The notes below the pieces were generated by a model. That model was not told the DNA's origin. It was given only the letters and a program-made list of their open reading frames with translations, and made no database searches. 64,000 nucleotides of DNA from Vulcanococcus sp. Clear-D1 (lineage in GTDB: Bacteria; Cyanobacteriota; Cyanobacteriia; PCC-6307; Cyanobiaceae), in NCBI RefSeq assembly GCF_014654725.1, contig NZ_JACVZV010000013.1, positions 1 to 64,000 of the forward strand, read 5' to 3'. Below are positions 23,944 to 30,800 of the stretch, piece by piece. The stretch's first letter is position 1. Each line of letters starts with the position of its first letter. The position numbers were made by a program, and so were the translations under genes.

Positions 23944-24507
23944 ATGGCGCCATTGCCCGCCCCGGAACCTGCGCGCCATCTGGAAACCATCGCCAGCCTG
24001 GATGCCCGCAAGCTGCGCTTCGAGATCAACCGGGTGCAGTTGCCGATGGGGGTGGAGGGCAGCTTCGGTGTGATCAAGCACCCCGGTGCCTCTCTGGCGG
24101 TGCCAGTGCTTGCTGACGGCCGGGTGGTGGTGCTGCGCCAGTACCGCTTTGCCGTGGCCACGCGCCTCCTGGAGTTCCCCGCCGGCACCCTGGATCCCGG
24201 CGAGACGCCGCTGTCGACGATGCAGCGTGAGCTTCAGGAGGAAGCGGGCTACAGCGCCAGCCGCTGGGATGCGCTTGGCGCGATGCTGCCCTGCCCGGGC
24301 TATTCCGATGAGGTGATACACCTCTTTTTGGCCCGGGATCTCAGCGAGCTGAGCGAGCGCCCCGCCGGCGACGACGATGAAGATCTCGAGGTGGTGTTGA
24401 TGACACCGGCCGAACTCGATGCCGCCATCGCCAGCGGCGATGAGTACCTCGACGGCAAAAGCATCACGGCTTGGTTCCGGGCCAAGCAGCTGCTCGGCTT
24501 GGCATGA
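23944..24507 (+). CDS. Nudix hydrolase, ADP-ribose pyrophosphatase-like
   Basis: ATG 23944 gives 187 aa. The Nudix box is complete: GTLDPGETPLSTMQRELQEE followed by AGY (G-x5-E-x7-REUxEExGU). The upstream VVLRQYRFAVATRLLEFPAG and downstream PGYSDEVIHLFLARDL match the ADP-sugar pyrophosphatase (NudF/ADPRase) subgroup, which cleaves ADP-ribose or related compounds. The stop overlaps the photolyase start (ATGA), so both are probably on one transcript. Exact substrate not determinable from sequence. Confidence 0.9.
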   Translation: MAPLPAPEPARHLETIASLDARKLRFEINRVQLPMGVEGSFGVIKHPGASLAVPVLADGRVVVLRQYRFAVATRLLEFPAGTLDPGETPLSTMQRELQEEAGYSASRWDALGAMLPCPGYSDEVIHLFLARDLSELSERPAGDDDEDLEVVLMTPAELDAAIASGDEYLDGKSITAWFRAKQLLGLA

Positions 24508-26036
24508 GCGCGGAACGTTGGCTGTTCTGGCATCGGCGCGATCTGCGTCTGGCCGACAACCTGGGCCTGGCTACGGCCGCTGCTGCCACCCCTGCGGTGA
24601 CCGGGGTGTTCGTGCTCGATCCCGCCATCCTCGGCGCCCCGGATATGGCGCCGGCGCGGGTGTGGTTCCTGCTCGAGAGCCTGAAGGAGCTGCAGCAGCG
24701 CTGGCATGAGGCGGGCAGCCGGCTGTTGGTGCTCGAAGGGGATCCGGAGCAGGTGCTGCCCCAGTTGGCGGAAGCCTTGGCGGCGCCGGTTGTGGCCTGG
24801 AACCGGGACGTGGAGCCCTACGGCCGTGCCCGCGACCGGCGCGTGGCGGCGGCGTTGCAGGCGGCCGGCCGCAAGGTGCTCGTGGATTGGGATCAGCTGC
24901 TGGTGGCGCCGGAGGCGCTGAAAACCGGCGGCGGTGATCCCTATCGCGTGTATGGCCCCTTCCTGCGCAATTGGCGCGGCCAGCTGGAACGCAAGGCCGC
25001 GGCGGGCTCCGCTCTCAGCGGTGGCGTGGACCCCGTGGCAGCACCGGCTGGCCTTGTGGATCTGGATCCAGCGGCCCTGCCGGAACCGCGTGCGGCGCTG
25101 TGGGCCCAGCTGCCACTGCGCGACAGCCTTCCCACGCTGGAGGAGCTGGACCAATCATTTGAGGGGGTGGACTTGTGCCCGTGCCGGCCTGGAGAGGCCG
25201 CCGCTTTGGCGCAGCTGCAAGCGTTCTGTGATGGAGGCGGTGTATCGAGCAGGCGCATTCCGTTGTTCGGCTACGAACCGGGCCGCAACATGCCGGGGGA
25301 GGCCGGCACCTCGGGCTTGAGTGCGGCGCTTAAATTCGGCACCCTTAGCCCGCGTCAGGCCTGGGCCGCAGCGCAGCAGGCCCGCCGGGTGGCGGAAGCC
25401 TTAGGTGGTGCGGAAGAAGCGATCACCTCGATCGGCGTGTGGGAGCAGGAACTGGCCTGGCGCGAGTTTTATCAACAGGCGCTGTTCCATTTCCCCGAAC
25501 TGGCGGAGGGGCCCTACCGGCCGCAGTGGAAGCACTTCCCCTGGGACAACCACCAGGGCCGCTACGAGGCCTGGTGTGAAGGCCTCACCGGGATGCCGAT
25601 CATTGATGCGGCGATGCGCCAGCTCAACGAGAGCGGCTGGATGCATAACCGCTGCCGCATGATCGTGGCCTCCTATCTGGTGAAGGATCTGATCTGTGAT
25701 TGGCGCTGGGGCGAAACTGCCTTCATGCAGCGCCTCGTGGACGGGGATTTAGCAGCCAACAACGGCGGCTGGCAGTGGAGCGCCAGCAGCGGCATGGATC
25801 CCAAGCCGCTGCGCATCTTCAATCCCGCCACCCAGGCCAGCAAGTTCGATCCCACTGGCGCCTACATCCGCCAGTGGTTGCCGGAGCTGCGCCATGTGAA
25901 CACCAAGGATCTGCTCAGCGGCGAGATCGCTCCGATGGAGCGGCGCGGCTATCCAGGGCAACTGGTGAGCCACAAGAACCAACAAGCCCGCTTCAAGGCT
26001 CTTTACGCCGCCTTGCCCAAGCCGGGCAACGCCTGA
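24504..26036 (+). CDS. phrA: Deoxyribodipyrimidine photolyase, class I
   Basis: The 510-aa flavoprotein repairs cyclobutane pyrimidine dimers with blue light. The N-terminal antenna domain starts WLFWHRRDLRLADNLGLA. The FAD domain shows ELAWREFYQQALFHFP, GLTGMPIIDAAMRQL, GWMHNRCRMIVASYLVKDL and NNGGWQWSASSGMDPKPLRI, including the Trp/Met contacts of CPD photolyases. Length is usual. ATG 24504 overlaps the Nudix stop. This is the complete photolyase of the window; a second, split one lies at 28494-29929. Confidence 0.95.
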   Translation: MSAERWLFWHRRDLRLADNLGLATAAAATPAVTGVFVLDPAILGAPDMAPARVWFLLESLKELQQRWHEAGSRLLVLEGDPEQVLPQLAEALAAPVVAWNRDVEPYGRARDRRVAAALQAAGRKVLVDWDQLLVAPEALKTGGGDPYRVYGPFLRNWRGQLERKAAAGSALSGGVDPVAAPAGLVDLDPAALPEPRAALWAQLPLRDSLPTLEELDQSFEGVDLCPCRPGEAAALAQLQAFCDGGGVSSRRIPLFGYEPGRNMPGEAGTSGLSAALKFGTLSPRQAWAAAQQARRVAEALGGAEEAITSIGVWEQELAWREFYQQALFHFPELAEGPYRPQWKHFPWDNHQGRYEAWCEGLTGMPIIDAAMRQLNESGWMHNRCRMIVASYLVKDLICDWRWGETAFMQRLVDGDLAANNGGWQWSASSGMDPKPLRIFNPATQASKFDPTGAYIRQWLPELRHVNTKDLLSGEIAPMERRGYPGQLVSHKNQQARFKALYAALPKPGNA

Positions 26037-28493: not shown

Positions 28494-28967
28494 CTACTGC
28501 TGCGGGCTCCAGTTGGCCCACACCTCCCGTTCGGCGCGGCGCCAGTAGCGGCTGAAGCGCCCCAGATCCACCCGTCCATCCAGCTGTACGAACGGCTCAG
28601 GCTCCAGAACCTCCACAGGCAGCTCCTGCTCAAGGGCCTTCCCAATCGCCTCCACCCGAGGGTCGGTGCCGGCGCTGGTGACGATGCCATCGGCCCCATG
28701 GGCGCGGGCGAAGGCGAGCACCTCGGCCGCCACATCCCCGTGGCGCAAGCTCACGGGCAGCTCCAGTAGGCATTCGTAGAGGAAGCCGATCCGCTTGAGG
28801 CTCACCGCTTGGGGCGCCCCGCCGGCGGGATCGCCGGTGGTGGGGCTGCGGCCCGCCAGGAGTTCCGCGTCGAACACGAACACCGCTGGCCGGTCGGGGT
28901 GGGCCTGCAGGGCGGGATTGGCGGGGCCGAGGGCCTCGCCGTGAATCCAGAGGATGGGGCGTTCCAT
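28494..28967 (-). CDS. Stand-alone N-terminal (alpha/beta) domain of a photolyase/cryptochrome-like protein
   Basis: A 157-aa protein from ATG 28967, corresponding to only the antenna-binding Rossmann-like domain of a photolyase: PILWIHGEALGPANPALQAH, then AVFVFDAELLAG, SLKRIGFLYECLLELPVSLR and DVAAEVLAFARAHGADGIVT. No FAD-binding part is present. The FAD half is the preceding gene on the same strand, 14 nt upstream, so the two are co-transcribed. In fused photolyases this domain comes first; here it is encoded second. It probably docks with the FAD protein to form a two-subunit flavoprotein (inference). Confidence 0.8.
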   Translation of the reverse strand: MERPILWIHGEALGPANPALQAHPDRPAVFVFDAELLAGRSPTTGDPAGGAPQAVSLKRIGFLYECLLELPVSLRHGDVAAEVLAFARAHGADGIVTSAGTDPRVEAIGKALEQELPVEVLEPEPFVQLDGRVDLGRFSRYWRRAEREVWANWSPQQ

Positions 28968-28981
28968 CGGGTTGGCTCTGC

Positions 28982-29929
28982 TCAGTGGCGGCGGGTGGGA
29001 CGACTCAGGGCGGCGGAGGGGCCGGATGACCGCGGGCTGGAGCGTTCGCGGCGGCCCGCATCCACGCTGCGGAGGCTGGGTAGTGGTTGGAAGAGTTCGG
29101 CCTCCAGCTGCTCGTAGCTGGCATCGAACGGGCAGCCCTGTTCGCTCAGGCGGCAGCTCCGGCAGAAGCTGCCGCCGCTGTAGCGCTCGAGGTTGCCTCG
29201 ATTGAAGAAGTAGGGCTTGTGGCTGAAGCTGCTGGCCACCCACTGCCAGCTCAGGTTGTTGCTGGCTGGATCGCCATCGAGCAGGTGGCGCAGGAACCAT
29301 TGGGCCCCGGCCTGCCAGCGGACCCGCCGCCAGTGCACCAGGTAGGCCGCCAGCCACATGCGGGCGTGGTTGTGCAGCCAGCCGCTGGTGTGCAGCTCAG
29401 CGATGAAGCCATCCATGCAGGCCAGGCCGGTGCGGCCCTCGGCCACGTCGGCCGGGAGCTCAGAGCTGTAGGTGCCGGGGTGGTGGCCGGTTTTGAGCTC
29501 TTCTTGATCGCGCCAGATGCCGCCTCCGAGCTGCTGCCAGAGGCGTTGCCAGTAGTCGCGCCAGCCGAGCTCATTGATCAGCTTTTCACCGGCTGGCCGG
29601 CCACCGCCGCCCGGGGCCTGCAGCCGGGCGAACACGGCATCGCGCACCTCCGCCAGGCTCAGTGCCCCATGGCGGATGTAGGGCGACAGGCGGGTCACCG
29701 GGCCATCAAGGAAGTTGCGTCCCTTGGCGTAGCGGGCCGGCTGGATGCGGCCCAGCAGCGCTTCGGCCTGGTGGCGGCCGCCGCGGATCGGGCTGAGGCT
29801 GCCTTCGGCTTCTGGGAAGAGGTGTTGCAGCTCGGCCTCCAGCGCCTGGCGGCTCTCGAACTGGCGCGGCAGCTCGCCTGGCTGCTCAGGCCAGCTGAGC
29901 GGTGCGCCGCTAAGGGAATCGGTGGCCAC
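28982..29929 (-). CDS. Stand-alone FAD-binding domain of a photolyase/cryptochrome-like protein
   Basis: About 315 aa from GTG 29929; the frame is open to 30091, with ATG 30019 as alternative, but that would overlap fabI. FAD-domain features are SPIRGGRHQAEALLGRI, RLSPYIRHGALSLAEVRDAV, ELGWRDYWQRLWQQLGGGIW, FIAELHTSGWLHNHARMWLA and NNLSWQWVASSFSHKPYFFN. The region just after has CRSCRLSEQGC (C-x2-C-x6-C), hinting at a metal or Fe-S site. The C terminus is Arg/Ser-rich. The matching alpha/beta domain is the next gene. DNA repair or photoreception cannot be told apart from sequence alone. Confidence 0.82.
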   Translation of the reverse strand: MATDSLSGAPLSWPEQPGELPRQFESRQALEAELQHLFPEAEGSLSPIRGGRHQAEALLGRIQPARYAKGRNFLDGPVTRLSPYIRHGALSLAEVRDAVFARLQAPGGGGRPAGEKLINELGWRDYWQRLWQQLGGGIWRDQEELKTGHHPGTYSSELPADVAEGRTGLACMDGFIAELHTSGWLHNHARMWLAAYLVHWRRVRWQAGAQWFLRHLLDGDPASNNLSWQWVASSFSHKPYFFNRGNLERYSGGSFCRSCRLSEQGCPFDASYEQLEAELFQPLPSLRSVDAGRRERSSPRSSGPSAALSRPTRRH

Positions 29930-30017: not shown

Positions 30018-30800
30018 ATGCTCCTCGACCTGCGCGGCAAGAAGGCCCTCGTCACCGGCATCGCTAACAACAAGTCGATTGCCTGGGGCATCGCCCAGCA
30101 GCTGCATGCCGCCGGCGCTGAGCTGGGGGTGACCTATCTCCCCGATGAGAAGGGCCGCTTCGAAGGCAAGGTGCGCGACCTCACCGCTCCCCTGGCACCC
30201 ACCCTGTTCGAGCCCCTCAACGTGCAGGACCCGGCTCAGATCGAGGCCGTGTTCAACCGGGTGAAGGAGCAGTGGGGCTCCATCGATGTGCTCGTGCACT
30301 GCCTGGCCTATGCCGGCAAAGACGAGCTGGTGGGCGATTACTCGAATATTTCCCCGGAAGGCTTTGGCCGCGCGCTCGAGGTGAGCGCCTACTCGTTGGC
30401 GCCTCTCTGCCGCTACGCCAAGCCCCTGTTTAACGAGGGCGCCAGCGTGATCACCCTCAGCTACCTCGGGGCTGAGCGCGCCATCCCCAACTACAACGTG
30501 ATGGGCGTGGCGAAGGCGGCCCTGGAGGCCTCCGTGCGTTATCTGGCCGCTGAGCTGGGCGCCGAGAAACAGGTGCGCGTGAATGCCATCAGCGCTGGCC
30601 CGATCCGCACCCTGGCCAGCTCTGCCATCGGTGGCATCCTCGACATGATCCACAACGTGGAGGAAAAGGCCCCGCTGCACCGCACCGTGACCCAAGACGA
30701 AGTGGGCGGCACCGCGGCCTTCCTCGCCAGCCCCCTCTCGAGCGGCATAACCGGCCAGGTGATCTATGTTGATGCGGGCTACTGCATCACTGGAATGTGA
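30018..30800 (+). CDS. fabI: Enoyl-[acyl-carrier-protein] reductase (NADH)
   Basis: The 260-aa SDR enzyme carries out the last reduction in each fatty-acid elongation cycle. LLDLRGKKALVTGIANNKSI is the FabI N terminus. DVLVHCLAYAGKDELVGDY, the catalytic Tyr/Lys in YNVMGVAKAALEASVRYLA (Y-x6-K spacing unique to FabI) and AGPIRTLASSAIGGI confirm it. ATG 30018 follows a short leader containing GGGGGAGAATCC. It is divergent from the photolyase FAD gene, whose start is about 90 nt away. Confidence 0.96.
   Translation: MLLDLRGKKALVTGIANNKSIAWGIAQQLHAAGAELGVTYLPDEKGRFEGKVRDLTAPLAPTLFEPLNVQDPAQIEAVFNRVKEQWGSIDVLVHCLAYAGKDELVGDYSNISPEGFGRALEVSAYSLAPLCRYAKPLFNEGASVITLSYLGAERAIPNYNVMGVAKAALEASVRYLAAELGAEKQVRVNAISAGPIRTLASSAIGGILDMIHNVEEKAPLHRTVTQDEVGGTAAFLASPLSSGITGQVIYVDAGYCITGM

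Follow-up and report, generated by a model that had tools for sequence, protein, structure and literature searches.

A photolyase encoded as two genes in swapped order: a probable two-subunit enzyme of the Phr4/Phr5 kind in Vulcanococcus and its relatives

Introduction

In well-studied photolyases, the antenna domain and the catalytic domain share one chain. The locus considered here places them in two adjacent ORFs. It lies within a stretch of 64,000 nucleotides of Vulcanococcus sp. Clear-D1 (positions 1 to 64,000 of contig NZ_JACVZV010000013.1), which we refer to in its entirety as the window, and it raises a simple question: do these ORFs encode separate proteins that operate together as one photolyase, or do they reflect a single enzyme joined by a frameshift, a catalytic protein with an optional accessory or even a light sensor? 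If the locus does specify a repair enzyme, which UV lesion would be its substrate?

The arrangement itself is not new, and the window locus is a further case of one already in print. A heterodimer was suggested for SynWH7803_0266/0267 in 2012 (PMC3441193) and, ten years later, the pair was described in marine picocyanobacteria as Phr4/Phr5, or Phr6 where fused (Haney et al. 2022, PMC9426592). The 2022 study leaves undecided whether the genes yield one frameshifted protein or two polypeptides, reports a seven-bp separation with a change of frame for all strains studied and predicts (6-4) repair from the Fe-S cysteines together with the UV-C/UV-B pattern (PMC9426592). As in the window, Phr4 and Phr5 of marine Synechococcus and Cyanobium are separate ORFs in FAD-then-antenna order with four Fe-S cysteines, and a normal phr3 photolyase is encoded a few genes away. 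Among the literature matches listed, which were limited to papers outside subscription, we saw no further account of a photolyase that is permuted or divided between two genes, and the available parts of PMC9498864 and PMC9649867 hold nothing bearing on the split.

Results

Locus layout and gene calls

A first-pass annotation of this DNA had placed an FAD half of 315 aa first and an antenna half of 157 aa second, 14 nt apart, with a normal photolyase also present in the window. Both the ORFs and the Pfam matches bear this layout out (Table 1). For phr4, we prefer the GTG start, which coincides in the alignment with that of close relatives, to an in-frame ATG at 30091 that would lengthen the protein to 369 aa. 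The ordinary one-chain photolyase has the 8-HDF-type model as its best match, with a score under the cut-off of that model. Two further members of the family are encoded elsewhere in the genome: contig C38 has a Phr1-like protein of 595 aa, and contig C15 has a PhrB-type protein of 516 aa that shows His-His and four Cys. The ORF beside the PhrB-type gene presumably resembles uvrC. A published account likewise has uvrC adjoining phr2 (PMC9426592).

Table 1. Photolyase-related features of the window
Feature	Position	Strand	Details
FAD/catalytic half (phr4 type)	28982-29929	(-)	GTG start, 315 aa; Pfam FAD_binding_7 E=3.1e-23
Antenna half (phr5 type)	28494-28967	(-)	ATG start, 157 aa; alpha/beta domain related to photolyase N-terminal domain
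Spacer from phr4 stop (TGA) to phr5 start	28968-28981	(-)	14 nt
Ordinary one-chain photolyase (phr3 type)	24504-26036	(+)	Nearest model is 8-HDF-type class I

Identity of the antenna half

The antenna half matches Pfam DNA_photolyase weakly, under the curated cut-off (E=0.014), and its assignment is supported by three further lines of evidence. Among 58 aligned antenna halves, 48 match DNA_photolyase at E<=0.1, the best at 1.4e-5; one locus whose reference spanned a stop (L020) was left out of this alignment and kept in the junction count. The antenna profile also finds the Phr1-like protein of the same genome, at its N-terminal domain (probability 95.5%, E=1.4e-8). Lastly, the predicted antenna fold (mean pLDDT 86.2, pTM 0.77) has 38 matches in the PDB at E<=0.001, of which 37 are photolyases or cryptochromes, many of these being the same class II enzyme entered more than once. 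A second structural aligner placed two Fe-S (6-4) proteins, CryB (Z 12.1) and PhrB (Z 11.7), at the top of its list. Since this aligner also matched the model with universal stress proteins (Z 8.7 to 10.1, vs 12.1 for CryB), the fold alone is no proof of a photolyase domain.

Two probable polypeptides at a variable junction

Relatives of the locus were drawn from 151 genomes of the family, from a genome collection (the best 80 of 581 loci) and from 386 cyanobacterial genomes. After removal of duplicates, these comprised 110 distinct loci: 77 adjacent split pairs, 17 fused in FAD-then-antenna order, 10 with the halves spaced by at least 150 nt and 6 whose examined stretch lacked an antenna. All six of these genomes have an antenna match at another site, which in one case is partial. 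Both forms are found even within the window's own genus, with the split form in five of the relatives searched and the fused form in one (G150). The recurrence of two complete ORFs makes it unlikely that a sequencing frameshift conceals a fused gene, the case that would have undone the first-pass reading, and the same recurrence led us to reject a pseudogene.

The junction itself is highly variable. Start codons were taken as those nearest to the profile start, and a different choice would change the gap, not the phase. By this choice, the gaps of the 77 adjacent pairs range from -104 to +138 nt, with 37 overlapping. Phases 2, 0 and 1 occur in 48, 20 and 9 pairs, respectively, and the phr4 stop is TGA, TAA or TAG in 51, 20 and 6. 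Even sister loci differ, as the window has a gap of 14 in phase 2, while two sisters have a gap of 6 in phase 0 (L005 and L006) and another a gap of 4 in phase 1 (L034). Because phases, gaps and stops all vary, sisters included, a conserved frameshift does not explain the layout. Judging from this comparison, phr4 and phr5 very probably specify two separate polypeptides, not one frameshifted protein, which largely settles the question of one or two proteins posed in 2022.

The window spacer of 14 nt also departs from the seven bp reported for Phr4/Phr5. By the start choice used, a 7-nt gap is present in 2 of the 77 adjacent pairs. As the spacing is variable among close relatives, Synechococcus WH7803 included, we treat the seven-bp separation as a non-defining character of Phr4/Phr5. 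WH7803 (L045) carries the pair with phr5 in the frame of phr4 behind a TGA, an arrangement at odds with the published seven-bp spacer and frame change. The 14-nt spacer before the window phr5 contains no Shine-Dalgarno-like site by a simple motif scan. The same scan detected such a motif before phr5 in 26 of the 77 adjacent pairs, the window not among them, and a common Shine-Dalgarno site for the phr5 start was rejected on these counts.

Co-inheritance of the halves

To what extent do the halves travel together when they are not neighbors? Using E-value limits of 1e-45 for the FAD half and 1e-10 for the antenna, we searched 386 cyanobacterial genomes and 201 genomes from the phylum of a Roseiflexus genome (G503), both sampled evenly from larger groups. 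As raw counts that ignore kinship, the FAD half is present in 82 of the cyanobacterial genomes, the antenna in 83, both in 81 and either in 84. The exceptions consist of one genome with a related FAD protein and no detected antenna (G176) and two with an antenna lacking the FAD half, one at a contig edge (G047) and one partial (G497). The Jaccard index for FAD half and antenna is 0.96, vs 0.34 for the FAD half and the control PhrB domain PF04244 (125 of 386 genomes, 53 shared). In the phylum of G503, raw counts that likewise ignore kinship give the FAD half in 9 of 201 genomes, the antenna in 10 and both in 9; outside the cyanobacteria, G574 has the antenna alone.

The distance between the halves is far less constant than their joint presence. 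Among the 81 cyanobacterial genomes with both, 49 have them fused or less than 200 nt apart, 10 have them 211-1874 nt apart on one strand and 12 have them on one contig at a distance of 25 kb to 4.9 Mb; in the other 10, they are on different contigs of draft assemblies and so are not necessarily far apart. One genome with a full pair also contains a second, truncated FAD-antenna pair, its halves beside each other (G407, contig C1 293235-293917). The Roseiflexus locus (L085 2449-6481) encodes, in order, a protein of the PhrB type (His-His, Fe-S cysteines), the FAD half, an intervening ORF and the antenna half. We take the intervening ORF to resemble an acyltransferase.

Recurrent fusion and the circular permutation

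Fused and split forms are intermixed among the relatives. A quick tree of 107 FAD domains, which has long outgroup branches and was used only for this mixing and for the neighbors of the window, implies by parsimony at least seven interchanges between fused and split forms, three of them forced by starred branches, and places the window nearest to a Vulcanococcus MAG and other MAGs. Both forms occur as well on Deinococcus plasmids, among the 7 of 159 plasmid records examined: D. psychrotolerans has a fused gene, and Deinococcus sp. QL22 has split genes that overlap by four bases (L202 1357-2730; L203 1369-2660). The antenna of the latter strain is annotated as a hypothetical protein.

A natural fused protein (L073) provided a means to compare the gene order with the textbook enzyme. 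Its model has a mean pLDDT of 71.3 and a pTM of 0.74, with a linker of low confidence. Taking match ranges as first and last aligned residues only, model residues 1-304 match 60-474 of the 1qnf chain (Z 9.2, rmsd 5.1, 267 aligned), while residues 342-458 match 1-129 of the 3zxs chain (Z 10.2, rmsd 2.3, 113 aligned) and residues 342-455 match 1-130 of 1dnp (Z 9.6, rmsd 2.2, 108 aligned). Foldseek TM-scores of the fused model reach only 0.26-0.39, and the fold search gives nothing on the interface. Because the halves of the fused model map onto swapped photolyase regions, the gene order is a circular permutation of the textbook enzyme, as the first-pass annotation had proposed. Its further claim, that the two products rebuild a whole protein as two subunits, stands as a matter of inference: co-inheritance even of unlinked halves and recurrent fusion suggest that Phr4 and Phr5 quite likely form a working complex.

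Active site, Fe-S cysteines and lesion type

We take residues E283, W286, N349, M353 and W392 of the Anacystis nidulans enzyme to be its CPD contacts. These align with E120, W123, N187, M191 and W230 of phr4, which are kept in 63, 64, 64, 60 and 64, respectively, of the 64 split-type rows of the alignment (fused rows left out). The split protein of Deinococcus sp. QL22 has Q at the E120 position, and A. nidulans R350 corresponds to H188 in all 64 relatives. At the five contact positions, the PhrB-type protein of the genome reads Q, W, H, L and L. The PhrB-type active-site His is absent from phr4, being N187 in 64 of 64 relatives, while the own and the Roseiflexus PhrB-type proteins have H. On the other hand, four Fe-S-type cysteines of phr4 (C171, C256, C259 and C266) are invariant in all 64 and aligned with those of PhrB-type proteins. 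PMC9426592 lists 13 FAD-site residues. The window protein shares 9 of them and has substitutions at three (T240->V, S241->T, A385->S), and W280 is opposite a gap of the alignment.

The FAD profile matches PhrB (4dja) at E=9e-4, far more weakly than class I 1owl (E=8e-24). PF04244 (DPRP) was not among the matches of either half at E<=1, in a search where the HMMER filters already remove most hits weaker than 0.1. For Phr4, the DASH-cryptochrome model of NCBIfam has the top score by a small margin, at 77.1 bits vs a cut-off of 317.05. Residues aligned at low identity depict Phr4 as a protein that would combine a CPD-type site with an Fe-S site, and we favor, with fair confidence, the CPD as its main substrate. 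This is a checkable prediction, and it contradicts the published one. The latter is weakened, not disproved, because the site is of the CPD type and a PhrB-type protein is already encoded in the genome.

Discussion

The locus is probably best explained as a two-subunit photolyase of the Phr4/Phr5 kind. Presumably, each protein would be translated separately from one transcript, and Phr5 would then bind Phr4, occupying the place of the N-terminal domain of one-chain photolyases. There it would take up near-UV/blue light via a putative bound chromophore and hand the energy to the reduced FAD of Phr4, which in turn would split a lesion formed by UV, the likeliest being the cyclobutane pyrimidine dimer. 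A structural or DNA-binding role is probable for the Fe-S cluster of Phr4. Published experiments provide a functional context for these steps: disruption of phr4 lowered UV-C survival 20-30 fold in RS9916, the sole strain with a published UV-survival function, and phr4/5 raised UV-C survival 10-20 fold in E. coli (PMC9426592). This E. coli protection was not significantly different between light and dark, and there was no effect with UV-B (PMC9426592). Light-independent protection is odd for a photolyase.

Several other readings deserve consideration. Programmed frameshifting at the junction, which would join both ORFs into one Phr6-like protein, draws on the existence of fused forms, but it is confronted with all three phases and a 7-nt gap in 2 of 77 adjacent pairs, with WH7803 genes that no +1 shift could join, as they share a frame behind a TGA, and with 22 of 81 cyanobacterial genomes in which the halves are separated by more than 20 kb or assigned to different contigs. 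We accord it hardly any credence for the window and, given the junction variation and unlinked pairs, reject it as a general mechanism; the comparative data thus count against the frameshift option of 2022. The same 22 genomes, as well as short photolyase-like proteins that have the active-site pattern of Phr4 and no detectable antenna, could be taken to indicate that Phr4 acts alone as a short photolyase, with Phr5 as merely an optional accessory. This is rather improbable given that the two halves occur together almost without exception (in 81 of 84 cyanobacterial genomes and 9 of 10 in the phylum of G503) and have been fused repeatedly.

If the two proteins do form a repair enzyme, it could conceivably be a two-subunit (6-4) photolyase, a reading compatible with the invariant Fe-S-type cysteines, with CryB and PhrB heading the structural list for the antenna model and with the published loss of UV-C, but not UV-B, survival upon loss of phr4 (PMC9426592). 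We nonetheless regard it as unlikely, if deserving of attention: Phr4 has a CPD-type Asn in place of the PhrB-type His and retains the E, M and W of CPD enzymes, its profile scores PhrB far below class I, a protein of the PhrB type (His-His, four Cys) is already encoded in the genome and, in Roseiflexus, such a protein is located directly upstream of the FAD half. The first-pass annotation had also envisioned a separate repair or light-sensing role. The repair part of this proposal fits the UV-C survival of the published mutant (PMC9426592), whereas we found no evidence for light sensing. A cryptochrome-like sensor that is not a repair enzyme might account for the slight preference of Phr4 for the DASH-cryptochrome model and for the light-independent E. 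coli protection, yet the former is far under its cut-off, the repair-type active-site residues are retained and UV-C survival is altered in the published mutant (PMC9426592). It is consequently very improbable, and a signalling role, also considered, found no support.

Returning to the two-subunit photolyase, its distribution hints at a broader possibility, which we put forward tentatively and at somewhat less than even confidence. Phr4/Phr5 may represent an old and widespread photolyase class in which separate genes encode a light-collecting and a catalytic protein, co-inherited in cyanobacteria and the Roseiflexus phylum even when megabases apart, present in Deinococcus and repeatedly fused in the reverse of the textbook order. 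Its enzyme would be an Fe-S protein with a CPD-type, not a (6-4), site, and the Z-domain of short photolyases could be a worn antenna. A natural two-protein photolyase is also of practical value, since the antenna could be removed, swapped or titrated with the enzyme untouched, making its contribution directly testable.

The key features of the window pair can be compared with those of several known classes. Phr6 of some Cyanobium has the same domains in the same order, except on one chain with a variable linker of 13-56 aa, and fused proteins are scattered among split ones in the tree. Class I CPD photolyases (1owl, 1dnp) share FAD-domain similarity and the E, W, N, M and W residues with Phr4, whereas they are one chain with the antenna first, and the genome's own Phr3 has no aligned Fe-S cysteine. 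The (6-4) enzymes of the PhrB/FeS-BCP group have four Fe-S cysteines at positions aligned with Phr4 and include the top structural matches of the antenna model, CryB and PhrB; unlike the window pair, they are one chain with a PF04244 N-terminal domain and an active-site His. By profile scores and residue pattern, Phr4, as an FAD domain without an N-terminal antenna, is closer to the SPL (short photolyase-like) class than to the others. This class is described in PMC9426592 and PMC9178010, the latter of which places a Synechococcus elongatus protein in it. Like Phr4, the SPL/Phr7 proteins have their FAD domain at the N-terminus and exhibit the E/W/N-H/M/W pattern in 8 of 8 examined, whereas the Fe-S cysteine quartet is found in 0 of 8. 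Outside the split and fused group, the highest FAD-profile scores go to short photolyase-like proteins: 223 bits for G176, 185 and 177 for Persicobacter and 122-142 for three alphaproteobacteria, while Prochlorococcus Phr7 reaches 116-123 vs 73.6, 33.5 and 30.2 for the own Phr3, Phr1 and Phr2.

The Z-domain may be a degenerate antenna. Compared with the antenna profile, the C-terminal Z-domain of Prochlorococcus Phr7 has no detectable similarity (probability 0.1), and the C-terminal parts of Persicobacter and G176 together give a weak signal (probability 53.9, E=1.3e-4; reversed control 0.1), falling to 0.4 and 8.0 when compared singly. With the Prochlorococcus result negative and the weak signal confined to Persicobacter and G176, the Z-domain is at most a candidate for a degenerate antenna. 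The weakly matching C-terminal parts belong to L201 1222-2562 (+) of Persicobacter and L174 319-1671 (-) of G176.
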